This document shows positions 29,597-50,839 of a stretch of DNA of 64,000 nucleotides, piece by piece. This stretch comes from an uncultured Litoreibacter sp. (GTDB taxonomy: Bacteria > Pseudomonadota > Alphaproteobacteria > Rhodobacterales > Rhodobacteraceae). The stretch covers positions 389,103 through 453,102 of the forward strand of contig NZ_CANKWO010000003.1 of assembly GCF_947487515.1 (NCBI RefSeq), written 5' to 3'. The notes beneath the pieces are model-generated. The model made no database searches. It saw nothing but the letters and a program-made list of their open reading frames with translations, and was not told the DNA's origin. Position numbers and translations under genes: made by a program. Numbering within the stretch: position 1 is the stretch's first letter; every line of letters begins with the position of its first letter.

Positions 29597-29606
29597 TGTG
29601 ATCACA
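29597..29606. promoter_or_regulatory. TGTGATCACA palindrome at the GntR/FCD gene
   Basis: This perfect palindrome ends 9 bp before the ATG of the GntR/FCD gene. The same sequence occurs in pairs upstream of sucC and sdhC. It is the obvious candidate for an autoregulatory operator. Confidence 0.7.
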
Positions 29607-29615
29607 GTTTGCGAC

Positions 29616-30266
29616 ATGCTTATAAATTCTGCCAAACCAGAGCCCAGCGGCGCGACCAATGAGTTGATTTATCGACGTTTGCGCGCGCAAGTCATGCATG
29701 GCGAGCTTCTGCCGGGGTCCGCCAAAACCCTGCGCGGCATCGGAGCGGAGTTTGGCGCGTCGATGACCCCCGCGCGCGAGGCAATGCGGCGCTTGGTGGC
29801 GGAAGGCGCATTTACATTGTCGTCCTCGGGGCGAATATCGACGCCTGAATTGTCAAACGACCGGATAGAAGAATTGGCAGCCCTGCGCGCGCTACTGGAG
29901 CCGGAGTTGGCCGCCCGCGCATTGCCACGCGCACATCTGGCGCTGATCGACCGGCTGCAATCCATCAATGGCTCGATTGCTCAGGCCATCACCCGCCAAG
30001 ACCCCGTTGGCTACATCCGCACCAATCTGGAGTTTCACCGCACTTTGTACTTGCGTGCGCAAGCTCCGGCGATGTTGGCGATGGCGGAAACAGTATGGCT
30101 GCAGATGGGCCCGACAATGCGTAGCCTTTATGAGAAGTTGCGACGCTCGGAGTTGCCGCAACACCACCGGCTCATCGTCGCGGCCCTGAAAGCCGGAGAT
30201 GAACCGGGGCTAAGATTGGCGGTGCGTGCGGATGTAACTCAAGGGCTAAGGATGCTTGCGCAGTAG
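29616..30266 (+). CDS. GntR-family regulator with FCD domain (candidate TCA-cycle regulator)
   Basis: This 216-aa transcription factor has a GntR winged helix at about residues 8-70 (NELIYRRLRAQVMHGELLPG, then the LRGIGAEFGASMTPAREAMRRL recognition part) and an all-helical FCD domain with the expected His residues (NLEFHRTLY and HHRLIVAAL). FCD regulators sense organic acids, often with a metal. I chose the ATG at 29616; a TTG 36 bp earlier would read through the operator. It lies next to the lpd end of the suc operon. Shared operators point to control of suc and sdh operons. Confidence 0.85.
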   Translation: MLINSAKPEPSGATNELIYRRLRAQVMHGELLPGSAKTLRGIGAEFGASMTPAREAMRRLVAEGAFTLSSSGRISTPELSNDRIEELAALRALLEPELAARALPRAHLALIDRLQSINGSIAQAITRQDPVGYIRTNLEFHRTLYLRAQAPAMLAMAETVWLQMGPTMRSLYEKLRRSELPQHHRLIVAALKAGDEPGLRLAVRADVTQGLRMLAQ

Positions 30267-30269
30267 CGC

Positions 30270-30297
30270 CTTGGGCGGACCTTGCGGCCCGCCCAAG
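30270..30297. terminator. Terminator-like hairpin
   Basis: CTTGGGCGG and CCGCCCAAG form a 9-bp stem between the convergent GntR/FCD and lpd genes. No T run follows on the plus strand. Confidence 0.55.
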
Positions 30298-30305
30298 AAT
30301 TGAAT

Positions 30306-30322
30306 GTGGGGCGCTGCCCCAC
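30306..30322. repeat. Short GTGGGGC-GCT-GCCCCAC hairpin, probable dispersed element
   Basis: This 7-bp perfect stem with a 3-base loop is followed by a CCCCGAGGTATTTT stretch. From memory, closely similar hairpins recur between genes in many Rhodobacteraceae genomes. I see only this copy in the window. Confidence 0.45.
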
Positions 30323-30363
30323 GCCCCGAGGTATTTTCGAAGCAATGATGGGGCAGCAAGCGT

Positions 30364-31752
30364 TTAGCTGTGAATAGGGCCGTCACCGCAAGCCAAGGCT
30401 GCTTCACGCACGGCTTCCGAATAGGTCGGATGTGCGTGGCATGTGCGGGCAAGATCTTCGGCGGCGGCACCAAATTCCATCGCAACACAGATTTCATGGA
30501 TCAAATCCCCCGCCATTGGGCCAATGATGTGAGCCCCCAATATGCGGTCCGTATCTTTGTCTGCGAGGATTTTTACGAAGCCCTCGCCGGCGAAATTGGC
30601 CTTGGCGCGACCATTGCCCATGAAAGAAAACTTGCCGACCTTATAGGCGTGACCTGCGTCTTTCAATTGTTCCTCGGTGAGGCCAACATTGGCGACTTCG
30701 GGATGGGTATAAATCACTCCGGGGATGACGTTGTAATTCACATGGCCCTTTTGACCCGCGAGAACCTCTGCAACACCCATGCCTTCATCTTCGGCTTTAT
30801 GTGCCAGCATCGGACCCGAAATTGCATCGCCAATGGCATAAATGCCTTTTACTGACGTCGCCCAATGTGCGTCGGTTTTGATTTGGCCGCGCGGTTCTAG
30901 CTCGACGCCCAATTCGGTCAGCCCAAGGCCGTCTGTGAAGGGTTTGCGGCCAGTGGCAACCAGAACGACATCTGCATCTTCCACGTGCTCGCTGTCGTCT
31001 TTTCGCAGCTTATAAGTGACCTTGGCCTTGTTGTTTTTAACCTCAACCCCTTGCACGGCGGCCCCTAGTTGAAACTCTAGACCTTGCTTTTTCAAAGTGC
31101 GCTGGAAGGTTTTGGCAAGATCAGCATCCATGCCCGGGGTGATGGCATCGAGAAATTCTATGACCTTCACTTCCGCGCCCAAGCGTTTGTAAACAGATCC
31201 CAGCTCCAACCCGATAACGCCAGCGCCAATGACCACCAGTTTCTTCGGGATTTTGCCCAGTTCTAACGCGCCGGTAGAGGACACGACAACTTTTTCATCG
31301 ATATCCACGCCGGGCAAAGTGGACACTTCGGAGCCGCTGGCGATCACGATGTTTTTGGCCTCGTGGACCTCGTCGCCAACTTTGACCTGACCGGCAGCGG
31401 GGATGGACGCCCAGCCTTTGATCCAGTCGATTTTGTTCTTCTTCATCAAGAATTCGACGCCTTTGGTGTTGGTATCGATCACGTCATCTTTGTAGGCGAG
31501 CATCTGCTTCCAATCGACGGAAGGTGCTTTGCCCTTCAGGCCCATTTTGGCGAAGTTGTGCTCTGCTTCGTGCAACTGATGCGATGCGTGAAGCAAGGCT
31601 TTGGACGGGATGCAGCCGACGTTCAAGCAGGTCCCGCCGAGGGTCTCGCGACCTTCCACAATGGCGGTTTTCAGGCCAAGTTGAGCACAGCGAATGGCGC
31701 AGACATAGCCGCCGGGGCCGGAGCCGATGATGATGACGTCGTAGCTAGACAT
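30364..31752 (-). CDS. lpd: Dihydrolipoyl dehydrogenase (E3)
   Basis: This 462-aa flavoprotein reoxidises the lipoyl groups of OdhB with NAD. The FAD motif GSGPGGY (10-16), the redox disulfide C42-LNVG-C47, the NAD motif [15 protein letters not shown] and the C-terminal [10 protein letters not shown] catalytic His-Glu pair are all visible. It is the last gene of the sucC-to-lpd operon, so it serves the 2-oxoglutarate dehydrogenase complex first of all. Confidence 0.97.
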
Positions 31753-31814
31753 TGAGGTATCTCCTTACCTGTATGAGGCGAAATTGGGTGTCGGCATTTT
31801 GTTGAGGCGGCTTT

Positions 31815-32204
31815 TCATATCAAAGCCGCGATGAGCATGGTGATGGTTGCGAAGAAGCCTACCGTCCAGACGACCGAGCGCCAAGGCGACAGACCGTACG
31901 CATAGGCGGGGACGTATAGCACCCGCGCGATGAGGTAGAGGTAGGCGCATGTTTCGGTCACAGGAGAACTTTGCTTGCCCAATGTGACGACGACCACGGA
32001 GAGGGTGAATAGGATCAGTCCCTCGAAGTGGTTGTTCAAGGCGCGTTGCAAGCGACCGGCGATCCCCGACAGCTCCGGCTTGATGTCACGCGGGCCAAGG
32101 CTGACTTTGGTGCCAACCTGTCTCGTTGCGGCGACCGAGTAGAGGCAGAACTGAACCGCTTGGAGAAGGCCTGCGAGGGCGAGGATGGTGAGTTCAGTAG
32201 TCAC
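31815..32204 (-). CDS. MAPEG family membrane protein
   Basis: This 129-aa protein with four predicted membrane spans matches the MAPEG fold: RALNNHFEGLILFTLSVV and YLIARVLYVPAYAYGLSPWR are the typical glutathione-binding helices of the family. It starts with GTG overlapping the stop of the next upstream gene by 4 bp. It is one of several membrane genes riding in the suc-lpd operon. Substrate unknown. Confidence 0.82.
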   Translation of the reverse strand: MTTELTILALAGLLQAVQFCLYSVAATRQVGTKVSLGPRDIKPELSGIAGRLQRALNNHFEGLILFTLSVVVVTLGKQSSPVTETCAYLYLIARVLYVPAYAYGLSPWRSVVWTVGFFATITMLIAALI

Positions 32205-32707
32205 CTTAGAACACCTTTACTGCGGAGGCGCCAGAGTATGGGGGTTGGCAACGCTACGATCAAAAGAACCACTAGTGTGGCGAGAATGGTTTTCATACGA
32301 TTGCCCCAAAACCCCGCTTCGGTTGGTTTGAGGAGTGCGCGAAGGGGGCTAGCCCCACGGCTCGCGACGTCTTGTTCGGACGCAAAACCTGCGGCGGGCA
32401 GGTTCGGGTTGAGGGAATAGTCAATGAGCGACACGATATTGGAAGGAACAATTGCGACCAACACCACCAGTGCGGGCCAGAAAGCCCAGCGGCGTCTTTG
32501 CCGCGTTCCTTCAAGAAGCATGATAGCCGCAAGGAAAGTTGCCGCTGTCGGGACCAAGCCCAAAACCAACGCCATGTCAAAGCTGTAGGCGCGCATCAAA
32601 GTTTGAAACAGCCCCACTGCAGTAACAAAACAAATGCCCGCAGCCACCAGATAGACGGTCCATATTGCCATTCGCTGGCTGGTAGATAGGGGAGGGTTCA
32701 CGGACAT
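32201..32707 (-). CDS. Hypothetical inner-membrane protein, 168 aa
   Basis: I do not recognise this protein. It has four likely membrane spans (about residues 14-36, 44-64, 74-94 and 138-158) and a polar loop of about 40 residues between spans three and four. It is co-directed and overlapping with its neighbours in the suc-lpd operon. Confidence 0.7.
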   Translation of the reverse strand: MSVNPPLSTSQRMAIWTVYLVAAGICFVTAVGLFQTLMRAYSFDMALVLGLVPTAATFLAAIMLLEGTRQRRRWAFWPALVVLVAIVPSNIVSLIDYSLNPNLPAAGFASEQDVASRGASPLRALLKPTEAGFWGNRMKTILATLVVLLIVALPTPILWRLRSKGVLR

Positions 32708-32953
32708 TTAACTATCTGACGCCTTCTTGCCTGCTTTGTTGGCCCAGACAATAGTGCCATCATTCGGGCAGCGTAATGTTCCATCTCTGGAGCCATCCTC
32801 ATTGGTGCCTTTGAGAAATCCACCCGCGCCTTGGAAACGCCGATAAGGCGTATCACCTTTGCCCGAGTTCGGGCCAACACCTACCACGATGCGGATTTCA
32901 TCTGTGAAATCGCATTTTGGGCAGGTGAGGGATGTGGGTGAGAGGTAGGCCAT
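32708..32953 (-). CDS. Zinc-ribbon hypothetical protein, 81 aa
   Basis: This small protein has a CPKC motif near the start (TSLTCPKCDFTDE) and a single later Cys in LRCPNDGTIVW, so the zinc site may be incomplete or intermolecular. The ATG at 32953 has AAGGA 5 bp upstream, better than a longer upstream reading. It lies in the suc-lpd operon. Function unknown. Confidence 0.65.
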   Translation of the reverse strand: MAYLSPTSLTCPKCDFTDEIRIVVGVGPNSGKGDTPYRRFQGAGGFLKGTNEDGSRDGTLRCPNDGTIVWANKAGKKASDS

Positions 32954-32981
32954 TGGGGTCCTTAAAGAGGGCTGGGTGAGC

Positions 32982-33389
32982 TCAATCACGGGATTGTTCG
33001 GCGAAATCAAATTGAGAGGACTTCAAAGCCCAAACAACGAAGCCCCAACCCAACAGGTCAGGCAACGACAATATGACAGCCGCAAGCAATGGATCTAGAA
33101 TAGTATCGCCAGGGCGGAGTGGTGCACGAAAAACTCCAACTGCATATACAAACAGGGTTGCGGTCAATCCGAGCGTCGCCAACCAAACCTGTCTGGAAGT
33201 ATCACGAAAGATGTCGATTAGTAGCCATAGTGCTATAACAGGAACGATGAAACCGAGGGCCCTCAAAGCAAGCGGGAAGCGCTCTGGAAATAAACCTTGA
33301 TCCAGAACATCAAACACGACCAAAGCTAGAAATAGGCCGACAAACAGTGCAGCGGCCCATACTCGTTTTCTCCTAAAGCGCAGTTGCAC
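32982..33389 (-). CDS. Hypothetical inner-membrane protein, 135 aa
   Basis: I do not recognise this protein. It starts with GTG 2 bp after the odhB stop and has an Arg-rich N-terminus (RFRRKR) followed by four hydrophobic segments, so it is an inner-membrane protein. It is the first of four small genes between odhB and lpd. Confidence 0.65.
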   Translation of the reverse strand: MQLRFRRKRVWAAALFVGLFLALVVFDVLDQGLFPERFPLALRALGFIVPVIALWLLIDIFRDTSRQVWLATLGLTATLFVYAVGVFRAPLRPGDTILDPLLAAVILSLPDLLGWGFVVWALKSSQFDFAEQSRD

Positions 33390-33391
33390 TT

Positions 33392-34885
33392 TTACAAATC
33401 CATTAGCAACCGACGTGGATCCTCAAGCGCCTCTTTCACGCGAACCAAGAATGTCACGGCACCTTTGCCGTCGACGATGCGGTGGTCATAGGACAGCGCC
33501 AGATACATCATCGGGCGGATCACCACTTGACCATTGATCGCCATCGGGCGGTCTTGGATTTTGTGCATGCCAAGGATGCCGGACTGTGGCGGGTTCAGGA
33601 TCGGCGAGGACATCAGCGAGCCGTAAACGCCACCGTTAGAGATGGTGAAGCTGCCGCCCTGCATTTCTGCCATGCTGAGTTTGCCGTCACGTGCGCGTGC
33701 GCCTTTCTCGGCGATGGCCTTCTCGATATCCGCAAAGGACATCTGGTCGGCGTCGCGGATAACCGGAACAACCAGACCTGTAGGTGTGCCCGCAGCGATG
33801 CCCATGTGGACGTAGTTTTTGTAAACCACATCGGTGCCATCGATTTCGGCGTTCACATCCGGCACTTCTTTCAGCGCGTGAACACAGGCCTTGGTGAAGA
33901 AGGACATGAAGCCAAGTTTTACGCCGTGCTTCTTGAGGAACAGGTCTTTGTACTCGTTGCGAAGCGCCATCACCTCGGTCATGTCGACCTCGTTGTAGGT
34001 GGTGAGCATCGCGGCGGTGTTTTGGCTTTCCTTCAGGCGGCGCGCAATGGTCTGGCGCAGGCGGGTCATCTTCACCCGCTCTTCACGAGAGGCATCATCG
34101 GCAGAGACCGGAGCGCGCGGTGCAGAGGCAGCCGGAGCCGGAGCGGCAGGGGCCACGACTGCTTTCAGCGCATCTTCCTTCATCACGCGACCATCGCGGC
34201 CAGTGCCTTGGACGGTTGCAGGATCAATCCCTTTTTCGGCCATGATCTTATTGGCGCTTGGGGCGTTCTCGACGTCTTTTGCGCCACTTGCAGCAGGCGC
34301 AGAAGCGGTGGTTGCGGACGCCGCAGGTGCCGCGGCAACAGCCGCACCACCGGAAGACGACAGAACCGCCAGTTTCGCGGTCGCGTCTACGGTCGCACCT
34401 TCACCCGCAAGGATTTCCACGATGGTGCCTGCGGCTGGGGCCGGAACCTCAACAGAAACCTTGTCGGTTTCCAGCTCGCACAGCATTTCGTCCTGCGCGA
34501 CAGTGTCGCCTACTGCTTTGAACCAAGTGGAAACGGTGGCCTCTGAAACTGACTCGCCCAGTGTCGGGACCATCACGTCGACCGTGTCACCACCTGCAGC
34601 AGGTGCAGGGGCAACTTCAGCGGTTGCTGGGGCTGCGGCGGGGGCAGCGTCGCCCTCGGAGACTTGCGCCAACAGGGCGTCAACGCCAACGGTTTCGCCT
34701 TCGGCGGCGACAATTTCTGACAAGGTGCCAGCGACGGGCGATGGGACTTCGACGGTCACTTTGTCGGTTTCCAGCTCGCAGAGCATTTCATCGACGGCAA
34801 CAGTATCACCAGGTTTTTTGAACCAAGTTGCTACAGTGGCTTCAGTGACACTTTCGCCAAGGGTTGGGACGCGGATCTCGGACAT
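33392..34885 (-). CDS. odhB: Dihydrolipoyllysine succinyltransferase (E2) with two lipoyl domains
   Basis: This 497-aa core of the 2-oxoglutarate dehydrogenase complex has two lipoyl domains in a row, with the target lysines at 42 and 142 (both ELETDKV). Ala/Pro-rich linkers follow, then a peripheral subunit-binding domain ([16 protein letters not shown]) and the catalytic domain ending with [12 protein letters not shown]. The E. coli enzyme has one lipoyl domain. It lies 1 bp after sucA. Confidence 0.97.
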
Positions 34886-34886
34886 A

Positions 34887-37841
34887 TTAGTTTCCTTTGA
34901 CTGTCAGCGCATCGTTCACGAGTGCTGCTTGTTGTGCTTTGTGTTGGCTGGCCAGACCGGTCGCAGGCGAGGCAGCGGCGGCGCGACCAGCGTAAACCGG
35001 ACGCGAGTGTTTCGCATTAATTCGGGTCAAAACCCATTCGATGTTTGGCTCCATGAAGGACCATGCACCTTGGTTTTTCGGTTCTTCCTGACACCAGATC
35101 ATTTCGGCCTGCGGGAAGCGTTCCAATTCCTTCACCGCCGAGATGGCAGGGAACGGATAAAACTGCTCAAACCGCAGAAGGTAGACGTCGTCAATGCCGC
35201 GCGCGTCGCGCTCTTCCAGCAGGTCGTAATAGACTTTGCCGGAACACATAACGACGCGCTTGATCTTGTCATCAGCCTTCAACGTCGTATCGGAATTGCC
35301 CTGCTGGGCATCATCCCAAAGCACGCGGTGGAAGCTGGAGCCATCGGTGAATTCTTCCGCCTTGGACACGGCCAATTTGTGGCGCAGCAAGGATTTCGGC
35401 GTCATCAGGATCAATGGCTTGCGGAAATCGCGGTGAATCTGGCGGCGCAGAATGTGGAAGTAGTTGGCGGGCGTTGTACAGTTGGCCACGATCCAGTTGT
35501 CGCCGCCACACATGGTTAAGAAGCGCTCAAGACGTGCAGAGGAGTGCTCTGGGCCTTGGCCCTCATAGCCATGCGGCAACAGACACACGAGGCCGGACAT
35601 ACGCAACCATTTGCTTTCACCGGAACTGATGAACTGGTCGAACATGATCTGCGCGCCGTTGGCGAAGTCACCGAATTGGGCCTCCCATAGGGTCAGCGCG
35701 TTTGGTTCAGCCAGCGAATAGCCATACTCAAACCCCAAGACCGCGTATTCGGACAGCATGGAGTCGATGACTTCATACTGTGATTGCCCCGCGCGAATGT
35801 TGTTGAGCGGGTAGTAGCGTTCCTCGGTGTCTTGGTTGATCAGGCCCGAATGGCGGTGGCTAAATGTGCCGCGTGTGCAGTCCTGACCGGACAGACGCAC
35901 AGGATACCCTTCCGTCAACAAAGAGCCGAACGCCAAGGCTTCGCCCGTCGCCCAGTCGATGTTTTCGCCGGTGTCAAACATTTTGGCCTTAGATTCCAGC
36001 AAGCGCCCGATCGTTTTGTGCAAGGGGAAGCCGTCTGGCGCGGTGGACAAGCCACGACCGACCTCCTGAAACGTATCGTTCGAGATAGAGGTTTGCCCGC
36101 GCTGGTAGTTTTCAGCATCGCGCTTGTCCAGATGCGACCACTTTCCATCCAGCCAATCGGCTTTGTTTGGCTTGTAGTCTTTGCCGGCTTCGAATTCGTC
36201 GTTCAGATAAGACTGGAAGGAGGCTTTCATATCCTCGATCTCGCCCTCTGGGATCAATCCATCGCGCACCAAACGTTCGGTATAGAGCGTCAGCGTGGTC
36301 TTTTGCTTCTTGATCTTTTTGTACATCAACGGGTTGGTGAACATGGGCTCGTCGCCCTCGTTGTGTCCGAAGCGGCGGTAGCAAATGATGTCGATCACCA
36401 CGTCTTTGTGGAACTTCTGGCGGAACTCCGTGGCGACTTTGGCCGCATGAACCACCGCTTCCGGATCATCGCCGTTCACGTGAAAGATCGGGGCTTCCAC
36501 CATAAGCGCGATATCCGTCGGGTATGGCGAGGAGCGCGAGAAATGCGGCGCGGTGGTGAAGCCGATTTGGTTGTTGACCACGATGTGCATGGTGCCGCCG
36601 GTCTTGTGGCCTTTCAGGCCCGACAGACCGAAGCCTTCGGCCACAACGCCTTGGCCCGCAAAGGCCGCGTCGCCGTGCAACAGGATCGGCATGCAAGTGA
36701 TGCGGTCTTCGTCGTTGTTCTGGTCTTGCTTGGCACGCGATTTCCCCAACACAACAGGGTTCACCGCCTCTAGGTGTGACGGGTTGGCGGTCAGCGAAAG
36801 GTGGACGTTGTTGCCGTCAAATTCGCGGTCGGATGATGCACCAAGGTGGTATTTCACGTCGCCGGAGCCATCGACATCCTCGGGCTTGAAAGAGCCACCT
36901 TGGAATTCATTGAAGATCGCTTTGTAGGGTTTGCTCATCACATTGGCGAGCACCGACAGGCGGCCGCGGTGGGGCATGCCGATGACGATGTCTTTGACGC
37001 CCAAGCTGCCGCCGCGTTTGATGATCTGCTCCATCGCGGGTACGAGGCTTTCGCCGCCATCAAGGCCGAAGCGCTTGGTGCCCATATATTTGACGTGCAG
37101 GAATTTCTCGAAGCCCTCGGCCTCGACCAGCTTGTTCAGGATCGCTTTGCGGCCCTCGCGGCTAAAGGTGATTTCCTTGTCCCAGCCTTCGATGCGCTCT
37201 TTCAGCCAGCCCGCTTCTTCGGGGTTGGAGATATGCATGTACTGCAGCGCAAAGGTGCCACAGTATGTCCGCTTCAGGATCGACACGATTTCGCGCATCG
37301 AGGCTGTTTCTAACCCCAGCACATTGTCGATAAAAATAGGGCGGTCCATGTCGGCTTCGGTGAAGCCGTAGTTCTTTGGCTCCAGCTCGGGATGGGGTTC
37401 CGGCTCTTTCATGCCCAGCGGATCAAGATTCGCGGCAAGGTGGCCACGGATACGGTAGGCGCGGATGATCATGATCGCACGAATACTGTCGAGCACGGCC
37501 TGTTTGACCTGCTCGTCCGAGACGGCCACACCTCTTTCGGCCGCTTTGCCTTTGATCTTCTCGGCGGCTTTTTCCGGTTCGGCCCATTGGCCGTCCAACG
37601 CTTGGGTCAGGTCATCGCTGGGTTGTGGTGGCCAGTCAGCGCGCGCCCAAGATGGCCCTGCGGCTTCTTGCTTCACGTCCAGATCGGCGTCACCCAAGGC
37701 CTTGAAGAAATCCCGCCAGCCCTCATCGACTGCATTCGGATCGTTGGCGTAGCGCGCATATAGCTGTTCCAGATACTCGGCGTTGTGCCCTTGCATGAAG
37801 GAAGACGCGTGAAACTGGTCGTTCGAGGAGTGCTCGGTCAT
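34887..37841 (-). CDS. sucA: 2-oxoglutarate dehydrogenase E1
   Basis: This 984-aa thiamine-diphosphate enzyme decarboxylates 2-oxoglutarate. Visible features are the N-terminal [17 protein letters not shown]2-binding segment, [12 protein letters not shown], the TPP-binding [13 protein letters not shown] and NNQIGFTT stretch, and [11 protein letters not shown]. Its ATG overlaps the stop of the DUF805 gene (ATGA). It is in the middle of the sucC-to-lpd operon. Confidence 0.98.
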
Positions 37842-38332
37842 GTTGGGACCTCGTTAGGGTTGGGACCGTAGTGATTGGGGGCGGGTGTGGAGGGGAGGAT
37901 CATTTGCCCGATCAGTGGGCCCATGATCACAAAGGGGATAATCGCGCACACGGCCAAAACGGCGATGGCGATGAGTGTGAAAATTATCGTGCCAAAGGGA
38001 AAAAAGGCCGCGAGCGGGCTGAATGGTAGCACAAACAATAACGGTAATGCTGAGAGCCACAACAATGGCCAAAGCACTTGTGACCCGGGCTCGTCCGTGT
38101 CCTGAAGCCGTCTGGAGGTCGCAGACCAAATTGGAAGACTGATTGCGAGACACAAGAGAGTTTTATGAGGAATTGAATTCGTTACAACGTCTGCGGCGAT
38201 GATTTTTTCCGTCAAAAATGCTGTCGCGAAAGCCCAGACTGGTGCAAACCACCAGAACTCTGAACGCGAAGCACGACCAGTGAAAACCGGAAACTTGAGT
38301 AGACCGTTGAGTACAGCTTGAACGGGGCCCAT
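37838..38332 (-). CDS. DUF805 family membrane protein
   Basis: This 164-aa protein has the DUF805 start (LLKFPVFTGRASRSEFWWF) and four hydrophobic segments, including LPIWSATSRRLQDTDEPG in the loop typical of the family. The ATG at 38332 overlaps the preceding stop (TGATG). It lies between sucD and sucA. The family has no clear function. Confidence 0.82.
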   Translation of the reverse strand: MGPVQAVLNGLLKFPVFTGRASRSEFWWFAPVWAFATAFLTEKIIAADVVTNSIPHKTLLCLAISLPIWSATSRRLQDTDEPGSQVLWPLLWLSALPLLFVLPFSPLAAFFPFGTIIFTLIAIAVLAVCAIIPFVIMGPLIGQMILPSTPAPNHYGPNPNEVPT

Positions 38333-38967
38333 CAGTTGCCCTCCGAAGCGAAGTTCGCTTGCGTTTGAACGATGCCACTTACGGTAACAGGGGCATTGAT
38401 TTTCGCGGCAAGGCTGTCGGCGTTCAGGACGGTGGTCGTCCAAATCCCGCCCTTTTCGGCTTTGGTTGTCACGGGCGAGCCGAAATCCTTGGAGCCTTGT
38501 CCGGTGACGCTGGCGGACGACAGCGCGAAGCGGCAGATGATGTTGACGGTAGAAGGAGTTGGTTGGAGCCATTGTACCAAAACAGCCTCAGCATCCGCGC
38601 CGATTTGGCGGGTCAGGATGCGGGTCTTACTTTGGGGGATGTCTTTCTTCTTTGCAAAGCCAGCGACGGTTTTGCGCTGCAGGTCGACAATTGCTTTGAG
38701 CTGCTCACCACCGGTGTCGCCATTGGCGTAGAAGGCCACTTGGGGCCAGATCAACAGCTCGATGGTGTCTGAGGATAGGTCGCCCTCGGGGACCAGAACC
38801 CAGCCTTGCTGCGCTAAGACGTCAACGGTATCGCTAACATTTGCGTGCGGCAAGTGGCATGCTTCGATGGAGGCAGACATTTCGGTGAGGGTCTGGGCGC
38901 TGGCCACAAGGGAAGTGGCCGCCAAAGCGGTGCTTGCGCACGCTGCCATGGCGACCGCTTTGATCAT
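38332..38967 (-). CDS. Hypothetical exported protein, 211 aa
   Basis: I do not recognise the family. There is a signal peptide ([24 protein letters not shown]) and a soluble mature part of about 187 residues with two Cys that could pair. It overlaps the sucD stop by 4 bp (ATGA) and the DUF805 start by 1 bp, so it is translated together with the suc genes. Confidence 0.7.
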
Positions 38968-39848
38968 TTTGCGATCGCTGCCAGAACGGCTTCGCCCAAG
39001 CCTGCGGGGCTTTCAGCCACAACGATACCAGCGGATTTCATCGCTTCGATCTTGCTTTCCGCGTCGCCTTTGCCGCCAGCGACGATCGCGCCCGCGTGAC
39101 CCATGCGACGGCCAGGAGGGGCCGTGCGACCAGCGATGAAACCAGCTGTTGGTTTCCAACGGCCTTTTTTCTTCTCGTCAGCCAAGAACTGCGCGGCTTC
39201 TTCCTCGGCGGAGCCACCGATCTCGCCGATCATGATGATCGACTGAGTTTCGTCATCTGCAAGGAACATTTCCAGCACGTCGATATGCTCTGTGCCCTTG
39301 ATGGGGTCGCCACCGATGCCAACAGCTGTGGACTGGCCCAGACCGGAGTCTGTGGTTTGTTTCACAGCTTCATAAGTCAGCGTGCCGGAGCGCGAAACAA
39401 CACCAACAGAGCCGCGCTTGTGGATGTGACCCGGCATAATGCCGATTTTGCAGGCGTCAGGTGTGATAACGCCCGGGCAGTTCGGCCCGATCAGGCGGGA
39501 GGAAGAGCCTTCCAGCGCGCGCTTCACTTTCATCATGTCGAGAACTGGAATGCCCTCGGTGATGCAGCAGATGAACGGGATTTCCGCGTCGATGGCTTCC
39601 AGAATGGAATCCGCCGCGAAGGGGGGGGGGACGTAGATCACGGTCGCATCCGCGCCAGTGCGCTCCACGGCTTCGTGGCAGCTGTCGAAGACAGGCAGGT
39701 TCAGGTGGGTTTGACCGCCTTTGCCGGGTGTTACGCCGCCAACCATTTGTGTGCCGTAAGCAATTGCTTGTTCGGAGTGGAAAGTGCCCTGAGAGCCGGT
39801 AAAGCCCTGACAGATTACCTTGGTGTTTTCGTCAATGAGAATGGCCAT
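38964..39848 (-). CDS. sucD: Succinyl-CoA ligase subunit alpha
   Basis: This 294-aa subunit binds CoA and carries the phosphorylated His. Visible are [31 protein letters not shown], the [20 protein letters not shown] stretch and the active-site [11 protein letters not shown]. Together with SucC it makes succinate and ATP/GTP from succinyl-CoA. A run of nine G near 39621-39629 codes for a Pro-Pro-Pro segment and may be slippery for sequencing. Confidence 0.98.
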
Positions 39849-40265: not shown

Positions 40266-40267
40266 CA

Positions 40268-41461
40268 CTACCCCTTAACCGCTTTCACGATTTTCTCGGC
40301 GCCGTCCTTCAAATCGTCGGCTGCGATGATGTCCACGTCGGAGCCGTTGATGATGGCTTTGCCCTCTTCAACGTTAGTTCCTTCGAGACGCACAACCAAT
40401 GGCACCTTCAGGCCCACTTCTTTCACCGCGGCGACAACGCCCTCGGCGATGACATCGCAGCGCATGATGCCGCCGAAGATGTTCACGAGGATGCCTTTGA
40501 CGTTTGGATCGGAGGTGATGATCTTGAACGCTTCGGTCACTTTCTCTTTGGTCGCACCGCCACCTACGTCGAGGAAGTTGGCAGGTTCAGCACCGTAGAG
40601 TTTGATGATGTCCATTGTGGCCATTGCCAGACCAGCACCGTTCACCATGCAGCCGATTTCACCGTCCAAAGCGATGTAGTTCAGGTCGTATTTCGACGCT
40701 GCAAGCTCTTTGGGGTCTTCTTCGGTTTCGTCGCGCAGCTCCGCGATGTCGGCGTGGCGGTAGATTGCGTTGCCGTCAAAGCCCATCTTGGCATCGAGGC
40801 ATTTCAAGTCACCCTTGTCGGACACGATCAGCGGGTTGATTTCCAGCATTTCCATGTCTTTTTCGACGAACAATTTGTAAAGCGTGCCCATCAGTTGAAC
40901 GCACTGCTTGATCTGCCCGCCTTTGAGGCCCAGCTCAAACGCGATGCGACGGCCGTGGAAGGCTTGGTAGCCTGTTGCCGGATCAACAGAGAAGGACAGG
41001 ATTTTGTCAGGGGTGGATGCTGCGACTTCTTCGATGTCCATGCCGCCCTCGGTGGAGCAAACAAAGGATACTTGGCTTGTTTGGCGATCAACCAACAAAG
41101 CGAGGTACAATTCGGTTTCAATGCCGGAGCCGTCTTCGATGTAGATGCGGTTCACTTGCTTGCCAGCAGGGCCGGACTGATGCGTGACCAAAGTGCGGCC
41201 CAACATTTTCTTGGCCTCATTGGCCGCTTCTTCAACGGATTTGCAAAGACGCACACCGCCAGCTTCACCAGCGTCAGCTTCCTTGAAGGAGCCTTTGCCG
41301 CGGCCACCAGCGTGGATCTGAGCTTTGACAACCCAAAGCGGGCCGTCCAACTCACCAGCTGCGGTTTTCGCGTTTTCAGCGGCGAGGACGACACGGCCAT
41401 CGGAGACCGGTGCGCCATAGGAGCGAAGCAGGGCTTTCGCTTGATATTCGTGGATGTTCAA
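40268..41461 (-). CDS. sucC: Succinyl-CoA ligase subunit beta
   Basis: This 397-aa ATP-grasp subunit opens with [18 protein letters not shown] and has the nucleotide-binding [15 protein letters not shown] and metal-binding EINPLIV motifs. It is the first gene of the operon that continues to lpd. A pair of TGTGATCACA sites lies about 100-130 bp upstream. Confidence 0.98.
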
Positions 41462-41557: not shown

Positions 41558-41588
41558 TGTGATCACAGTTTGAAAACGTGTGATCACA
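41558..41588. promoter_or_regulatory. Paired TGTGATCACA sites upstream of sucC
   Basis: Two identical perfect palindromes occupy 41558-41567 and 41579-41588, with starts 21 bp apart (two helical turns). A further half site TGTGAT begins at 41595. The same pair with the same spacing precedes sdhC. This is the likely operator region of the suc operon. Confidence 0.8.
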
Positions 41589-42700: not shown

Positions 42701-42830
42701 GGGTGTATAGGGCACGCAAAGGATATGGTTTGATCAAGAAACGGGTCGCTCTTTTGATGTGGTTCAGCGATGCTCACTGCACCACGCCCTCAGACGGATA
42801 CCTCACGTGCAGTTAAAACAGCCGCCCTCA

Positions 42831-43739
42831 ATGGACATGAAAACCATAGCAATGCTGCTGCTTCTTGCGGCTGTTTGGGGAGGGTCGTTCTTCTTTGCGG
42901 AAGTTGCACTGCGCGAGGTTCCACCGCTGACCATAACACTTCATCGTGTGTTCTGGGCGATACCTGTTTTGGCCTTTGTTGTTTGGTTTCGCAAAATTCC
43001 CGTCCCTTGCTCGTTCCGCGTTTGGGGGAGCTATTTGGGTATGGGGGCGCTCAATAACGCCATTCCGTTTTCGCTGATTTTCTGGGGGCAAACCCAAATC
43101 GACAGTGGCCTTGCCTCAATTCTAAACGCCACCACCGCAATGTTTGGGGCTGTGGTGGCCGGAGTTCTTCTTGTGGATGAACCGCTAACCCAGAAGAAAA
43201 TCATTGGTGCGGGCTTGGGGGTTTTGGGGGTGGCCTGCATCATGGGGCCAGAAGTGATTACCGGATTTAGCCTTGGGAATATGGCCCAACTCGCGGTGAT
43301 CGGCGCGGCGCTGTCTTATGCTTTTGCGGGTGTTTGGGGGAAGCTGCTGCTTGCGGAACAACCGCCGCTAATGAATGCATTGGGGATGCTGATCGGCAGT
43401 ACTGTGCTGATGATCCCGATTGTCGTGGCCATCGATGGCCCGCCGAATATGGATTTGTCGCTGGGTGTTTGGGGCGCGCTGTTGGGGTTGGCGACCGTGT
43501 CCACTGTAGTGGCCTATGTTTTGTATTTCGCCATTCTGGCTAAGTCGGGTGCTGCCAATTTGATGCTAGTGACGTTGCTCATTCCACCGTTCGCCATTGG
43601 ACTTGGCGTTTTGTTCTTGGGAGAGCGAATGGAGCTGCAAGCGTGGGTCGGCTTCGCCGTTATCGCCTTGGGGTTTGCGGTGACAGACGGGCGGGTGTTT
43701 GCTCGGTTTTCCCAAAAGGAACATGACAGCGCCCAATAA
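42831..43739 (+). CDS. EamA/DMT family transporter
   Basis: This is a 302-aa inner-membrane protein with ten likely spans in two repeats. The EamA opening AAVWGGSFFFAEVAL and the repeat end motifs (ALNNAIPFSLIFWGQTQI; LFLGERMELQAWVGFAVIALG) are clear. The start is ATG 42831; a second ATG lies 6 bp on. The family exports metabolites such as amino acids or nucleosides. It ends at a bidirectional terminator shared with mdh. Confidence 0.9.
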   Translation: MDMKTIAMLLLLAAVWGGSFFFAEVALREVPPLTITLHRVFWAIPVLAFVVWFRKIPVPCSFRVWGSYLGMGALNNAIPFSLIFWGQTQIDSGLASILNATTAMFGAVVAGVLLVDEPLTQKKIIGAGLGVLGVACIMGPEVITGFSLGNMAQLAVIGAALSYAFAGVWGKLLLAEQPPLMNALGMLIGSTVLMIPIVVAIDGPPNMDLSLGVWGALLGLATVSTVVAYVLYFAILAKSGAANLMLVTLLIPPFAIGLGVLFLGERMELQAWVGFAVIALGFAVTDGRVFARFSQKEHDSAQ

Positions 43740-43740
43740 A

Positions 43741-43770: not shown

Positions 43771-43793
43771 GTAATGTGGTCTTGAGCGATGGC

Positions 43794-44852
<1,059 letters not shown>

Positions 44853-44920
44853 CTATCTGGGCGGAACTCATTTGCCGTTAGCTGTTGAACTTAAGGCCTT
44901 TTCCGCCATAGCTGTGGCAT

Positions 44921-45673: not shown

Positions 45674-45691
45674 CTCACGATGGCCTAGGTC
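45667..45691. terminator. Short hairpin over both stop codons
   Basis: GACCTAG and CTAGGTC pair around the region where the TauE/SafE gene and the facing small gene end. Each arm contains the stop codon of one gene. Confidence 0.5.
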
Positions 45692-46005
45692 GGCGCGCCA
45701 AGGGACGCGGGAAGTTCATCTTCTACCATTTCAAAGGAGTTTCCTGCGGCCACCAGACATGTGATGCCATTGGGATGAGTGACGGTTATGGTCCATGATC
45801 CTGTGTCGTCGGAAGCGTGCAATTCCACAATCCCGCTATTCGTAGCCAGCCCCATAGATCGGCGGGTTTCCCCGAATTTTGTGACCAGTTTTTGCATCAC
45901 CGCACTGCGATCCGCGCACATGTTTCTGGGTTGCGCCGAGGAGATGCTGGTGGCCAATAAAAATGCCACAAGTCCAAAGGAGAGCCCAAAGAGGTATTTC
46001 GTCAT
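45685..46005 (-). CDS. Hypothetical exported protein, 106 aa
   Basis: This protein has a signal peptide (MTKYLFGLSFGLVAFLLATSISSA) and a mature part of about 82 residues with two Cys. I chose the ATG at 46005 since AAGGA precedes it and a longer reading has no such site. I do not recognise the family by name. Confidence 0.7.
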   Translation of the reverse strand: MTKYLFGLSFGLVAFLLATSISSAQPRNMCADRSAVMQKLVTKFGETRRSMGLATNSGIVELHASDDTGSWTITVTHPNGITCLVAAGNSFEMVEDELPASLGAPT

Positions 46006-46309
46006 TTCAACGGTCCTTTCGTTGGGGATCGCGCAAATTTCGGACGCGATCGGAAACGCAGCGCGAACGATGTTTGCCTTTTGGCCAATGGCACCGTTCG
46101 CTGCAGGAGTAGAATTGCGAATATCCAAGAATATCTGGTTAAAGGACCGCGCGTTGCTGGCGAATTTTCGCGCTAAATAGTGAAAACTTGAAGAAACTTA
46201 AGTGTAGAGTGACGGATGTACGGAAAATTCTGCACTGCGGCAAATCACCTGTTGCAGAGACTGCCGGGTTGTGGTGAGTAATAATATGTCAAAACAGGAG
46301 TGCAATTTG
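46006..46309. other. Divergent intergenic region, 304 bp
   Basis: This region separates the small exported protein (minus) from malyl-CoA thioesterase (plus). It should contain both promoters. I see an AT-rich stretch around 46170-46210 and no hairpin, RNA gene or credible small reading frame. Confidence 0.5.
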
Positions 46310-47161
46310 ATGCAAAACGTCGCGCAGCCTTATCGTTCGGTGCTCTACATACCGGGCTCCAAAACCCGTGCGCTAGAGAAAGCTCAGTCCCTTCCCGTCG
46401 ATGCGATCATCTTTGATCTGGAGGATGCTGTCTCGCCGGATGAAAAAATTGCCGCTCGTGAATTGCTGGCGCAAACTTTGCGCGACACTGACTATGGACC
46501 GCGCAAATGTATCGTGCGCGTGAATGGTGGCGATACGCAATGGGGCGCGGAGGATCTGGCGACCTTTGTCGAAGTGGCACCTGATGCGATCTTGCTACCC
46601 AAAGTCGAAGATCCGAAAGTGGTGTCTGACCTTGCCAAACGGTTGAAGGGCAACACGACGATTTGGGCGATGATGGAAACGCCTCGCGGCATTCTGAACG
46701 CGGCAACAATCGCCGCTGCTCCGAAGGTCGAGGGGTTTGTGATGGGAACCAATGATTTGGCCAAAGACCTTGGTTCGCGGGGCCGTGATGCTATGAGAAC
46801 CAGCCTGCAGATGTGCCTGCTTGCGGCCCGCGCAGAAGGGCTGGTGTGTGTGGATGGCGTTTACAATGCGTTTAAGGATGAAGATGGCCTGCGTGTTGAA
46901 TGCGAAGAAGGCCGCGACATGGGGTTTGATGGAAAAACCCTGATCCATCCGGCGCAGATTGGCACGGCCAACACTGTATTTGCCCCCTCCGAGGACGATC
47001 TGGATCTGGCGCGCCGACAGGTTGCCGCCTTTGAGCAAGCCAAGGCCGAAGGGCAAGGTGTTGCGGTTGTGGATGGTAAAATCGTAGAAAACCTGCATGT
47101 TGAGACAGCGACGCGGCTATTGGCCAAAGCAAACGCTATCAACCTGCTGGAGGGTGCATGA
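46310..47161 (+). CDS. mcl2: (3S)-malyl-CoA thioesterase (CitE family)
   Basis: This 283-aa TIM-barrel enzyme of the HpcH/CitE family opens with YRSVLYIPGSKTRALEKA, and shows DLEDAVSPDEK and the FDGKTLIHPAQ motif. Its length fits the malyl-CoA thioesterase of the ethylmalonyl-CoA pathway better than the longer malyl-CoA lyase (about 318 aa). I take the ATG at 46310 with AGGAG 9 bp upstream; earlier starts at 46286 and 46271 are possible. The mesaconyl-CoA hydratase gene follows two genes later, which supports the role. Confidence 0.85.
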   Translation: MQNVAQPYRSVLYIPGSKTRALEKAQSLPVDAIIFDLEDAVSPDEKIAARELLAQTLRDTDYGPRKCIVRVNGGDTQWGAEDLATFVEVAPDAILLPKVEDPKVVSDLAKRLKGNTTIWAMMETPRGILNAATIAAAPKVEGFVMGTNDLAKDLGSRGRDAMRTSLQMCLLAARAEGLVCVDGVYNAFKDEDGLRVECEEGRDMGFDGKTLIHPAQIGTANTVFAPSEDDLDLARRQVAAFEQAKAEGQGVAVVDGKIVENLHVETATRLLAKANAINLLEGA

Positions 47162-47730
47162 CGCTACTAACACTTGGGGTTCTGTTGTGGGCCTTTGCTC
47201 ATTGGATAAAGCGGCTGGCGCCGGATTTTCGCGGTGCAATGACCGACAAAATGGGCGAGGCGTCAAAGGGCGTAATCACCGCCGCGCTGGTCTTGGCGTT
47301 GGTGTTTATGGTCATGGGCTACCGCAACGCGGAGTTCATTCCTATTTGGTCGCCGCCTAGTTTTTTCGGGCATATCAATAATCTGCTGATGCTGTTGGCG
47401 TTTTATGTTTTTGGTGCTTCTGCGGCGAAGCCTGCCATGGTTTGGCTGGGTACGAAAATTCGCCACCCTATGCTGGGGGCGGTGAAGATTTGGGCTTTTG
47501 CGCATTTGCTGGCCAATGGCGATTTGGCTTCGGTGATCCTGTTTGGCGGAATGTTGGCGTGGGCGATCATTTCTATGATCCTGATTAACCGAGCCGAAGG
47601 CCCATGGACACCACCGGAACAGGCGCCGGCGAAGAAGGAAATCGTTTTGGTTGTTGTCACATTGGTGCTGTTCAGCATTGTGGCTGGCATCCACACATTT
47701 TTGGGCTACAGCCCGTTCGGAGGCCTGTGA
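47158..47730 (+). CDS. NnrU family membrane protein
   Basis: This 190-aa protein with about five membrane spans shows the NnrU pattern: FGHINNLLMLLAFYVFGA and RHPMLGAVKIWAFAHLLANGD. NnrU was first linked to nitric oxide and nitrite metabolism, but many relatives sit in carbon metabolism loci. It overlaps mcl2 by 4 bp. Confidence 0.85.
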   Translation: MTLLTLGVLLWAFAHWIKRLAPDFRGAMTDKMGEASKGVITAALVLALVFMVMGYRNAEFIPIWSPPSFFGHINNLLMLLAFYVFGASAAKPAMVWLGTKIRHPMLGAVKIWAFAHLLANGDLASVILFGGMLAWAIISMILINRAEGPWTPPEQAPAKKEIVLVVVTLVLFSIVAGIHTFLGYSPFGGL

Positions 47731-47933
47731 TGAAAATCTACCGACTGCTCACCGAAGACGACACTTCGGCATTTTGCCACAAGGTGTCAGAGGCGCTCTC
47801 GAAGGGCTGGGAATTATACGGTGACCCGACCTATGCATTTGACGCGTCAAATGGCGTTATGCGTTGTGGTCAGGCCGTCACGAAAGAGATCGCGGGAAAC
47901 TACACCCCCGACATGAAGCTAGGACAGCAATAA
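47730..47933 (+). CDS. DUF1737 family small protein
   Basis: This is a 67-aa soluble protein with KIYRLLTEDDTSAFCHKVSEAL and the GWELYGDPTYAFD motif of the DUF1737 family. It shares one base with the stop of the NnrU-like gene and one with the start of the hydratase gene. No function is known to me. Confidence 0.85.
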   Translation: MKIYRLLTEDDTSAFCHKVSEALSKGWELYGDPTYAFDASNGVMRCGQAVTKEIAGNYTPDMKLGQQ

Positions 47934-48964
47934 TGAGCAAGACGAATGCAGGCCGTTTCTTCGAGGATTACACCGTCGGAGAGGTGATAGAACACGCCGT
48001 CCCGCGCACGCTATCCGGTGGTGAGCGGGCAATGTATCACGCGCTGTATCCAGCACGCCACGCCTTCTACTCGTCGGATGAATTCGCCCGAGATTGCGGC
48101 TTGCACGAAGCCCCACTGGACGATTTGATCGCCTTTCACACGGTTTTTGGCAAAACGGTTCCCGATATTTCGCTGAATGCAGTGGCCAATCTGGGCTATG
48201 CCGAAGGTCGGTTCTTGAAGCCCGTGCATATGGGCGACACCATCAGTTCTCGGTCAGAAGTGATCGGTGTGAAGCAAAACTCCAACGGTAAAACCGGCGT
48301 TGTTTGGGTGCGCACCACGGGTTCAAACCAGCTGGGTGAAGATGTTCTTAGCTATGTGCGCTGGGTGATGGTGCGTAAGGGCAATATCGATGCGCCCGCA
48401 CCGCAGACAGTGGTGCCGGAGCTGGCGCCGACAGTCGATGTCAGCAACCTGATCGTGCCTGAGGGGCTGAGTTTCGAAAACTACAACTTTGCCCAAGCAG
48501 GCGAGCCGCACCGGCTGGGTGACTATACTGTCGGCGAAAAGATCGACCACGTGGACGGTGTGACGATCGAGGAGGCCGAGCATATGCTGGCCACACGTCT
48601 GTGGCAGAATACCGCGAAAGTGCATTTTGACGCCACTGCGCGCGACGGCGGACGGCTGATCTATGGCGGGCATGTTATCTCTTTGGCGCGGGCCTTGTCG
48701 TTCAACGGCTTGGCCAATGCGCAGATCATCGTGGGCCTGAACTCGGGCGCGCATGCCAACCCATGTGGGGCAGGGGACACGGTCAAGGCGTGGTCCGAGG
48801 TGCTGGACATCCAAGAGACGGGCGAGCCTGGCGTCGGGGCAATCCGCCTGCGCCTTGTTGCGCAAAAGGCAGAGGCGGCGCCCTTCTCGTTGAAGGGCGA
48901 AGACGGCAAGTACCTTCCGGGCGTGCTGCTTGATCTGGACTACTGGGCCTTGATGCCGGTTTAG
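47933..48964 (+). CDS. mch: Mesaconyl-CoA hydratase (MaoC family)
   Basis: This 343-aa protein has two MaoC/hotdog halves (GRFFEDYTVGEVIEH early; GGRLIYGGHVISLARAL in the second half). Its length and neighbourhood match the beta-methylmalyl-CoA/mesaconyl-CoA hydratase of the ethylmalonyl-CoA pathway. I chose the ATG at 47933 overlapping the previous stop (TAATG). It is co-transcribed with mcl2. Confidence 0.9.
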   Translation: MSKTNAGRFFEDYTVGEVIEHAVPRTLSGGERAMYHALYPARHAFYSSDEFARDCGLHEAPLDDLIAFHTVFGKTVPDISLNAVANLGYAEGRFLKPVHMGDTISSRSEVIGVKQNSNGKTGVVWVRTTGSNQLGEDVLSYVRWVMVRKGNIDAPAPQTVVPELAPTVDVSNLIVPEGLSFENYNFAQAGEPHRLGDYTVGEKIDHVDGVTIEEAEHMLATRLWQNTAKVHFDATARDGGRLIYGGHVISLARALSFNGLANAQIIVGLNSGAHANPCGAGDTVKAWSEVLDIQETGEPGVGAIRLRLVAQKAEAAPFSLKGEDGKYLPGVLLDLDYWALMPV

Positions 48965-48968
48965 ACAC

Positions 48969-50114
48969 TTGAGCGGATCATATCTTGCGAGGTGGACCGC
49001 CAAAGCGCACAAGCGCCTAGGCGCGGCGGTTCGAGACGCTGCCATGCGCGATGTTTTGGCGGGGCAGGTGGGCCAAGTATCCATGAGCACCCGCATCGCG
49101 CAGGGGCTCTCGGGCATTATGCTGATCGTGCCTTTCGTTTTGATGATCGGTGGAGTGGTGCTTTGCGTTCTGGGGTTCCCTAATCCGTTGCTGCTGTTCT
49201 TCGGCGGATTGATCGTGGCTGTCGGCTTTTATGTCCGCCCAAGACGTCCGACAATTGAGGGGCAGTTTTTCACGCGCGACGACCTGCCAGAGCTGTTCTC
49301 CCTAACAGATCAGATCGCAGAGCGGCTGGGCGGCCAGCCTATAACCAAGGTGCAATTCGGCGCTGAGTTCAACGCGCATTCAGTTGAACGCGTCGGGGAG
49401 CGCGTGTTGGGGATAGGCTTTGCTCTGTGGCAAATCCTGAGCGCGGAAGAACGCGTTGCCCTTATCGCGCATGAGATTTCGCATCAGGTGAATGGCGACC
49501 AAGCGCGCACCGGCATCTTGCAAGCGGGGCTGCATTCCGTTGCTGAATGGCATGCTTTGTGCGGGTCTTCGCGGCTTGTCGACCAAGAAGGATACTACCT
49601 ACGCGAGTCAGAAGCAGAGGATATCTTCGGGCGCGGCATCATGTGGATTTTCGCGGCGGCGTTCTCGCAGCTTTGGGTGCTGCTGACGCGGCTTAGCTTT
49701 CTTGACAGCCAACGGGCCGAATATTTCGCTGATGCTATCGCGACGCGCGCGGCTGGGCGTGAGGCGGTGATAGGGACGTTGCGCAAGCTCAGCTATATGC
49801 CACTGCTTCATGAAGGGTATTTGGAAATGGCACCTTCATTGCTGCCGCATGGGACGGCGTATTTTGACCAGCTTTGCCGCCACGCCATGACCCCGTCAGA
49901 GCAGGTGCGCGCTGAGTTGGGGGTGCAGATGGCCGAGGAGGCGCATTGCGTTGACATGAGCCACCCGCCGACTGTGGAGCGGATAAATTTTCTGGAAAAC
50001 CTGACGGACCCGCAGGGGACACCAATCCCCTACCGAGCGGGGATCGACGCGGAGCTTAAGCCGATCATCGAGATGGAAGGCGTGAAAATGCTACAAATGT
50101 TAGAGGTTCAGTAG
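48969..50114 (+). CDS. M48 family membrane metallopeptidase
   Basis: This 381-aa protein has two adjacent N-terminal membrane spans (about 45-90) and the zinc motif HEISH (168-172) with NGD nearby, as in HtpX/Ste24-like peptidases. Additional hydrophobic stretches lie at about 215-235. It starts with a TTG at 48969, 4 bp after mch; a later ATG at 49044 would still keep the spans. Likely role is membrane-protein quality control. Confidence 0.85.
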   Translation: MSGSYLARWTAKAHKRLGAAVRDAAMRDVLAGQVGQVSMSTRIAQGLSGIMLIVPFVLMIGGVVLCVLGFPNPLLLFFGGLIVAVGFYVRPRRPTIEGQFFTRDDLPELFSLTDQIAERLGGQPITKVQFGAEFNAHSVERVGERVLGIGFALWQILSAEERVALIAHEISHQVNGDQARTGILQAGLHSVAEWHALCGSSRLVDQEGYYLRESEAEDIFGRGIMWIFAAAFSQLWVLLTRLSFLDSQRAEYFADAIATRAAGREAVIGTLRKLSYMPLLHEGYLEMAPSLLPHGTAYFDQLCRHAMTPSEQVRAELGVQMAEEAHCVDMSHPPTVERINFLENLTDPQGTPIPYRAGIDAELKPIIEMEGVKMLQMLEVQ

Positions 50115-50127
50115 CATACTGATTGGG

Positions 50128-50790
50128 ATGCGACTTTCTGCGATCTTTCTGAGCACATGGATGAGCTGCGCCTCCGCGCAAGCTTGCGAGCTGGCCTTGG
50201 TGCTGGCGGTCGATGTGTCTGGGTCGGTAAATCCACATGAATATCAAGTGCAGATGAAAGGCCTAGGGGCTGCACTGGCCGACGGCGCTGTGTCGGAGGC
50301 ACTTGTGGTCGCGCAAGCAAAAGTGATGTTGATCCAATGGACCGGATCGTCGCGCCAGATCGTATCCGTACCATGGACGCAGGTCACCGATTTTGACGCC
50401 GCTGATGCATTGGCCGCCCGCGTTGGGGGGGCGACGCGGGAATGGCGCAGTTTCTCGACAGCCATAGGCGAGGCAGTCGGTTTCTCGTTGCAGCAATTTG
50501 TCCAAGTTCCAGAGTGCGGGCGGCGGGTCATCGATGTGTCCGGTGATGGGGTGTCAAACGAGGGTGTGCCACCTCAAGAACTGAAAGCCAGCGCCCTGCG
50601 AGATGGGGTAACAATCAACGGATTGGCAATTGAGGCCTCCGACACCGGATTGGTTGAATACTACCGCAGATTTCTCATCTCGGGACCCGGGAGTTTCGCA
50701 ATGCAGGCGTCCAACTTCGAAGAGTATCCAGACCGAATCCGGCAGAAGTTATTGCGTGAAATCACCAAACAAGTGGCCTTAGTGAAGTAG
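50128..50790 (+). CDS. DUF1194 (von Willebrand A-like) exported protein
   Basis: This 220-aa protein has a signal peptide (ending CASAQA) and a vWA domain with the metal-binding D29-V-S31-G-S33, the later ATREWRSFSTAI Thr region and DVSGDGVSNEG. DUF1194 proteins are common in Rhodobacteraceae without known function. It ends just before the sdh operator region. Confidence 0.88.
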   Translation: MRLSAIFLSTWMSCASAQACELALVLAVDVSGSVNPHEYQVQMKGLGAALADGAVSEALVVAQAKVMLIQWTGSSRQIVSVPWTQVTDFDAADALAARVGGATREWRSFSTAIGEAVGFSLQQFVQVPECGRRVIDVSGDGVSNEGVPPQELKASALRDGVTINGLAIEASDTGLVEYYRRFLISGPGSFAMQASNFEEYPDRIRQKLLREITKQVALVK

Positions 50791-50808
50791 ATGCTTCGTT
50801 TCGATTTT

Positions 50809-50839
50809 TGTGATCACTAAATTATTTGCTGTGATCACA
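50809..50839. promoter_or_regulatory. Paired TGTGATCAC sites upstream of sdhC
   Basis: The sites are TGTGATCACT (50809-50818) and TGTGATCACA (50830-50839), again with starts exactly 21 bp apart as upstream of sucC. They lie about 120-150 bp before the sdhC start. This is the likely operator of the succinate dehydrogenase operon. Confidence 0.8.

Follow-up and report, generated by a model that had tools for sequence, protein, structure and literature searches.

Palindromic sites before the regulator, sucC and sdhC genes

We analysed a 64,000-nucleotide stretch of contig NZ_CANKWO010000003.1 from an uncultured Litoreibacter sp. (the window), in which a gene for a GntR/FCD-type regulator, a suc-lpd gene run and the sdh genes are accompanied by copies of one short palindrome. 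Scanning the window at up to one mismatch placed perfect copies of TGTGATCACA at 29597, 41558, 41579 and 50830 and a one-mismatch copy, TGTGATCACT, at 50809. All five sites are intergenic and keep the 8-bp core GTGATCAC exactly, which is the motif reported for AkgR, a regulator of Rhodobacter sphaeroides. The features concerned, with the evidence for each in brackets, are:

29616..30266, plus strand: gntR/FCD regulator gene, AkgR ortholog, 216 amino acids (Pfam domains; 74% identity to the gene of genome G051, see below)
29597..29606, no strand: predicted single operator TGTGATCACA, putative autoregulatory site (window scan; ortholog upstream regions)
41558..41567, no strand: predicted operator TGTGATCACA, sucC-proximal (window scan; relatives' sucC loci)
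41579..41588, no strand: predicted operator TGTGATCACA, sucC-distal, 21 bp from the proximal copy (window scan; relatives' sucC loci)
50809..50818, no strand: predicted operator TGTGATCACT, sdhC-distal, 8-bp core GTGATCAC intact (window and genome scan)
50830..50839, no strand: predicted operator TGTGATCACA, sdhC-proximal, 21 bp from the distal copy (window scan; relatives' sdhC loci)

The original prediction had described two perfect palindromes upstream of sucC, a second pair upstream of sdhC with one base changed in its first copy, equal spacing of the two pairs and a single copy ending 9 bp before the regulator gene. Each of these was recovered: both pairs measure 21 bp from start to start, and 9 bp separate the end of the 29597 site from the ATG at 29616. 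In total the window holds 8 matches to TGTGATCACA at up to one mismatch, compared with a mean of 2.21 in 100 shuffled versions, none of which reached 8. The remaining three matches (13810, 27182 and 59590) lie inside open reading frames (ORFs); the one at 59590-59599 is TGTGATCACT within a CoA mutase-like ORF and is probably a coding word.

The whole genome (G000; 8 contigs, 3.34 Mb) contains 12 perfect 10-mers, 4 of them in the window. With ORFs called by length only, 7 of the 8 outside copies fall inside predicted ORFs and one, at C3:593456 (L096), is an intergenic single site without recognised role. In the genome-wide search for the paired motif that the original prediction had proposed, mismatch-free pairs of the 8-bp core at 21 bp occur only at suc and sdh, with three further places carrying two mismatches. 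The search of the whole genome for a wider regulon yielded zero perfect 21-bp pairs beyond these two.

The regulator is an ortholog of AkgR

The protein encoded at 29616-30266 has both a GntR domain (PF00392, 39.4 bits, cut-off 27) and an FCD domain (PF07729, 75.9 bits, cut-off 24.3) and belongs to the FCD subfamily of the GntR family. Among the matches listed, its nearest four named orthologs are from Litoreibacter, at 88-94% identity, which places the window in this genus or close by. The FCD domain is very conserved, with YIRxNLEFHRxLYLRAQAPAMLA found nearly throughout 82 aligned rows; two residues typical of FCD proteins, the Asp that binds metal and the final His, appear to be Asn and Asp here. 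The best solved relative by sequence is McbR of Escherichia coli (PDB 4p9f, E 4.3e-23). The likeness to McbR is at the protein level only; its host is E. coli and its targets are different. NanR, also an E. coli protein of the FCD class, differs in being a repressor with three close repeats rather than two palindromes two helical turns apart.

Genome G051 links the regulator to R. sphaeroides. Its reaction-centre L protein is 100% identical to the sequence of PDB chain 1aig_L, an R. sphaeroides structure, whereas none of the remaining 393 genomes exceeds 85%; G051 is accordingly taken as an R. sphaeroides-type genome. The regulator ortholog of G051 is 74% identical, is the single match at E <= 1e-40 and lies 0.75 kb beyond sdhB, in the order lpd-sucB-sucA-sucD-sucC, mdh, a citE-like gene, sdhCDAB and the regulator. 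Perfect 21-bp pairs precede both sucC and sdhC in this genome. According to PMC4344238 (2015), the GntR protein RSP_0981 is the predicted controller of sucCD (RSP_0967-6), the 2-oxoglutarate dehydrogenase genes (RSP_0965-62) and sdh (RSP_0974-6) in R. sphaeroides. The G051 regulator stands where RSP_0981 is expected, as implied by these locus numbers (sdh at RSP_0974-6, then RSP_0981), and by gene position together with 74% identity the window gene is an ortholog of RSP_0981. RSP_0981 is presumably AkgR. In PMC6365646, GTGATCAC is reported among the AkgR sites and R. sphaeroides AkgR is called an activator.

The window resembles the R. sphaeroides system in its orthologous regulator, its sucCD/2-oxoglutarate dehydrogenase/sdh targets, as suggested by the operator pairs preceding sucC and sdhC, and its core GTGATCAC. 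It differs in that the regulator gene lies beside lpd rather than beyond sdhB, and has a site of its own. From gene position, co-occurrence in 149 genomes, conservation of spacing and the published statements on R. sphaeroides AkgR, we regard it as very probable that the AkgR ortholog encoded at 29616-30266 uses the five sites as its operators. A related case is PS417_07240 of Pseudomonas simiae, a GntR protein of deoxyribonate catabolism that is 32% identical to AkgR and has the palindrome GTGATCAC before its gene (PMC6365646); it acts in another pathway, and the portion of that account available to us does not mention a tandem pair.

The paired layout is conserved at sucC and sdhC

To follow the pair beyond this genome, 149 family genomes, nearly one per genus, were scanned at up to two mismatches. 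The 30 loci returned comprise 15 before sucC, 13 before sdhC, one before a fumC-like gene and one coding match (L147). The pair at the fumC-like gene (genome G042, L140 1501-1653) is perfect and spaced by 21 bp, and marks a possible extension of the regulon.

A sample independent of the motif came from SucC and SdhA protein searches, taking the upstream regions of the 30 best loci each, the window's own included; consisting of best-scoring relatives, it leans to near genera. At sucC every one of the 30 loci carries a perfect pair; the spacing is 21 bp in 27 of them and 20 bp in the other 3. At sdhC the pair is present in 29 of 29 loci (24 at 21 bp, 4 at 20 and 1 at 19), with one mismatch in L281 and in L287 and two in L284; L273 was left out of this count because its sequence begins so near sdhA that the promoter cannot be included. 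Helical-phase spacing is thus kept at 19-21 bp in 59 of 59 loci (51 at 21 bp, 7 at 20, 1 at 19). The cores hardly vary among the loci, in contrast to the intergenic sequence around them, and the composite operator is nearly symmetric, reading TTT-GTGATCAC ... GTGATCAC-AAA with the palindromes 20-21 bp apart.

Eight distant genomes (G001, G015, G033, G040, G051, G090, G120 and G136), all with the regulator or, for G033, its 44% relative, were checked separately and prove more variable. The suc pair stands before sucC in seven of them. In G136 a perfect pair lies between mdh and sucA (L382 4754-4934) with no sucC there, as if it headed what remains of the suc operon. The sdhC pair is found in G001, G015, G040 and G051. 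Among other spacings, perfect cores separated by 31 bp (some three helical turns) occur in G042 (L209 1513-1551) and G136 (L210 1543-1581) at genes without clear link, and the listed pairs at 18, 24 and 27 bp (L213, L221-L224) are inside predicted ORFs.

The regulator gene has its own upstream site

Upstream regions were taken from the best 80 of 539 regulator relatives, all at least 73% identical and from Rhodobacteraceae/Paracoccaceae. The site before gntR is perfect in 60 and within one mismatch in 68 of these 80 loci; for comparison, 300 random palindromes reach at most 1 perfect match and 5 within one mismatch. An autoregulatory site, as far as sequence can tell, is common among the orthologs and not universal. 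The likely promoter element is:

29580..29585, plus strand: TTGACC, likely -35 box of gntR (position of TTGAC in relatives; promoter inferred)

In 56 of the 68 operator-bearing loci the distance from the first base of TTGAC to the operator is exactly 17 bp. A possible stop codon of an upstream gene overlaps this TTGAC in many relatives, 37 of 60 having an open frame of at least 60 codons that ends there; the window differs from these in that the gene upstream of gntR is divergent and TTGAC has no such overlap. An alternative gntR start at TTG 29580, as called in the mechanical ORF, would include the operator, but in 27 of 30 relatives the first aligned residue is encoded by ATG, which favours ATG 29616. 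Placed downstream of the likely -35 box and upstream of the start codon, the site takes a repressor position, and the box at a fixed distance before it would fit autorepression of gntR.

Operator position points to activation of suc and sdh

The predicted target genes in the window and the associated promoter element are:

40268..41461, minus strand: sucC, TTG start, heading the sucC-sucD-sucA-sucB-lpd run (ORF list; relatives)
30364..39848, minus strand: sucD, sucA, sucB, lpd and small interspersed ORFs (ORF list; same order in G051)
50962..55964, plus strand: sdhC, sdhD, sdhA, then small ORFs, then sdhB (ORF list; relatives)
50898..50903, plus strand: GTGACT, likely -35-type box of sdhC (GTGAC[A/T] box in relatives; promoter inferred)

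Of 30 sdhC loci, 24 allowed the start codon to be assigned. Among these, 21 have a GTGAC[A/T] box at 65-68 bp and one has it at 79 bp from the proximal core; the other two lack it. The box is the best-scoring promoter in 18 sdhC loci, with a 16-bp spacer in 17. If it is the core promoter, the centres of the two operators would fall some 98 and 119 bp before the start point, in an activator position. At sucC all 30 loci keep the pair at 104-121 bp from the start codon; consensus scoring of these loci found no uniform sucC core promoter. The activator label given to AkgR appears to fit pairs located this far upstream of both start codons.

Each of the tandem palindromes would take up one AkgR dimer, the two dimers lying on the same side of the helix and probably binding cooperatively; from there they would activate the downstream core promoters of both suc and sdh, so that the steps from 2-oxoglutarate to fumarate would run up as a unit. 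A single dimer on the site before the regulator gene would shut off the promoter of gntR itself. The signal may be an organic acid, which is plausible for an FCD domain. Altogether, one 10-bp palindrome could serve a two-mode switch, in which the composite pair activates suc and sdh at a fixed distance and the single site self-represses, with the suc pair older and the sdh pair later; we propose this full scheme tentatively and give it slightly less than an even chance.

A competing explanation is that the AkgR-like protein binds the same sites and represses suc and sdh until relieved by an intermediate of the tricarboxylic acid (TCA) cycle. Most FCD regulators are repressors, and the single site at the regulator's own gene looks like a repressor site. 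The pairs, on the other hand, keep well away from the sucC start codon in every locus and lie upstream of the conserved GTGAC box at sdhC, and the R. sphaeroides protein is called an activator (PMC6365646), which together make repression unlikely.

The pair and the regulator occur together across genomes

In the 149 family genomes the regulator was matched in 134 at E <= 1e-40 and in 131 at E <= 1e-60, and a perfect-core pair was found in 133 (any gap of 4-34 bp, coding places included). At 1e-60, 129 genomes have both, 14 neither, 2 the regulator only and 4 the pair only. The pair is thus present in 129 of 131 genomes with the regulator compared with 4 of 18 without it (Fisher p 2e-14, uncorrected for kinship). 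At 1e-40 the corresponding numbers are 130, 12, 4 and 3. Of the two regulator-only genomes, G040 contains both pairs with one mismatch each, and G147 (73% complete) yielded neither SucC nor SdhA.

In the 12 regulator-less genomes in which both sucC and sdhA were found, the 600 bp upstream of sucC and the 1600 bp upstream of sdhA contain no pair with fewer than three mismatches; the sdhA stretches do include sdhC. Three-mismatch pairs near the usual place, at sucC in G017 and sdhC in G101, could be remnants or chance. We also scanned 385 genomes of the class, 5 family members and 380 others. Each of the five family members carries two pairs together with the regulator. Among the 380 others, one pair, spaced by 22 bp, occurs in 2 genomes, and a regulator match at 1e-45 in 0.

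Several observations weigh against this assignment. Four of the 18 genomes that lack a close ortholog (G019, G033, G096 and G114) show the pair before sucC or sdhC. G033 encodes a 44% relative of the regulator on its sucC contig, and the other three assemblies are fragmented (G019 91% and G096 77% complete, the G114 contig breaking off inside sucC); that the regulator gene was missed in these three is not proved. The tally of 133 genomes counts perfect pairs anywhere, coding ones included, and 6 of the 15 genomes without a regulator match had only 20 candidates scored. On the SucC+SdhA tree of 31 genomes the regulator state changes 5 times, and 3 of these changes are required by branches with strong support; the number of independent events behind the agreement is therefore small. 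The co-occurrence test covers the 29616-30266 regulator alone, in a genome with 8 other FCD genes. Finally, the sdhC pair is missing in G033, G090, G120 and G136 though the suc pair is present, and the 200 bp before the G051 regulator gene hold no site at up to two mismatches.

In a second alternative, the sites are bound by a CRP/FNR-type regulator or another FCD protein and gntR is just one of the targets. The 8 other FCD genes and the 4 pair-only genomes speak for it, as do the TGTGA-TCACA half sites, which, without a spacer, resemble those of CRP. It is made very unlikely by the pairs being mostly missing where gntR is missing, and by the AkgR sites of PMC6365646 including GTGATCAC. Chance, or coding-type GTG-ATC-AC words without function, was rejected as having practically no probability: although 7 of the 8 other perfect genome copies lie in predicted ORFs, the five window copies are intergenic, position and spacing are kept while flanks diverge, and pairs are rare outside the family.

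The AkgR ortholog remains the favoured regulator. The original prediction is in large part supported: a small TCA-cycle regulon of suc and sdh, the GntR/FCD protein as its regulator, paired operators two helical turns apart and an autoregulatory-type site all agree with gene position, co-occurrence, conserved spacing and the AkgR literature. What it missed is the identity with AkgR, and hence the earlier description: the regulon is not new because the AkgR regulon of R. sphaeroides was described before. Added here, where the regulon is seen in another genus, are the rigid spacing of the paired sites, the breadth of its conservation within the family and a likely repression of the regulator gene by its own product. 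The parts available to us of the literature on AkgR, RSP_0981, the motif and tandem operators do not name a 21-bp pair; the main paper (Imam, Noguera, Donohue 2015, mBio 6:e02461-14) may do so.

Neighbouring genes

The 41558-41588 pair sits between divergent genes, sucC on the minus strand and a glycosyltransferase-like ORF on the plus strand. The latter, at 41687, was rejected as a target because the pair stays before sucC in 15 sucC loci whatever stands upstream. Likewise, mdh is not supported as a target, because it lies just upstream of the pair and in the same direction in the 9 of 15 relatives' loci where it is close before sucC. In the window two plus-strand genes (glycosyltransferase-like and DMT transporter-like, 41687-43739) separate mdh from sucC. 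The sucC start codon at 41461 is TTG in the window and ATG in the other 29 sucC loci. Around sdh, the genes at 46271-48964 and 57788-62702 are presumably CitE/malyl-CoA lyase-like, MaoC-like hydratase, CoA mutase-like and crotonyl-CoA reductase-like, which we take to suggest that much of the ethylmalonyl-CoA pathway is encoded there.

History and meaning of the circuit

In the midpoint-rooted tree, which does not include G136, the genomes G033, G090 and G120 branch early among those that bear the regulator. Because these three have the suc pair only, the suc pair may be older than the sdh pair, as suggested by few observations.

The AkgR-type circuit found here is well conserved yet ordinary and explains nothing fundamentally new. 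It ties a regulator published for one laboratory species to most of the Rhodobacteraceae genera sampled and shows which operator layout is kept. The pair at 20-21 bp is a simple genome signature that tells where suc and sdh are under this control, where the control may extend further, as to the fumC-like gene in one genome, and where it is absent.
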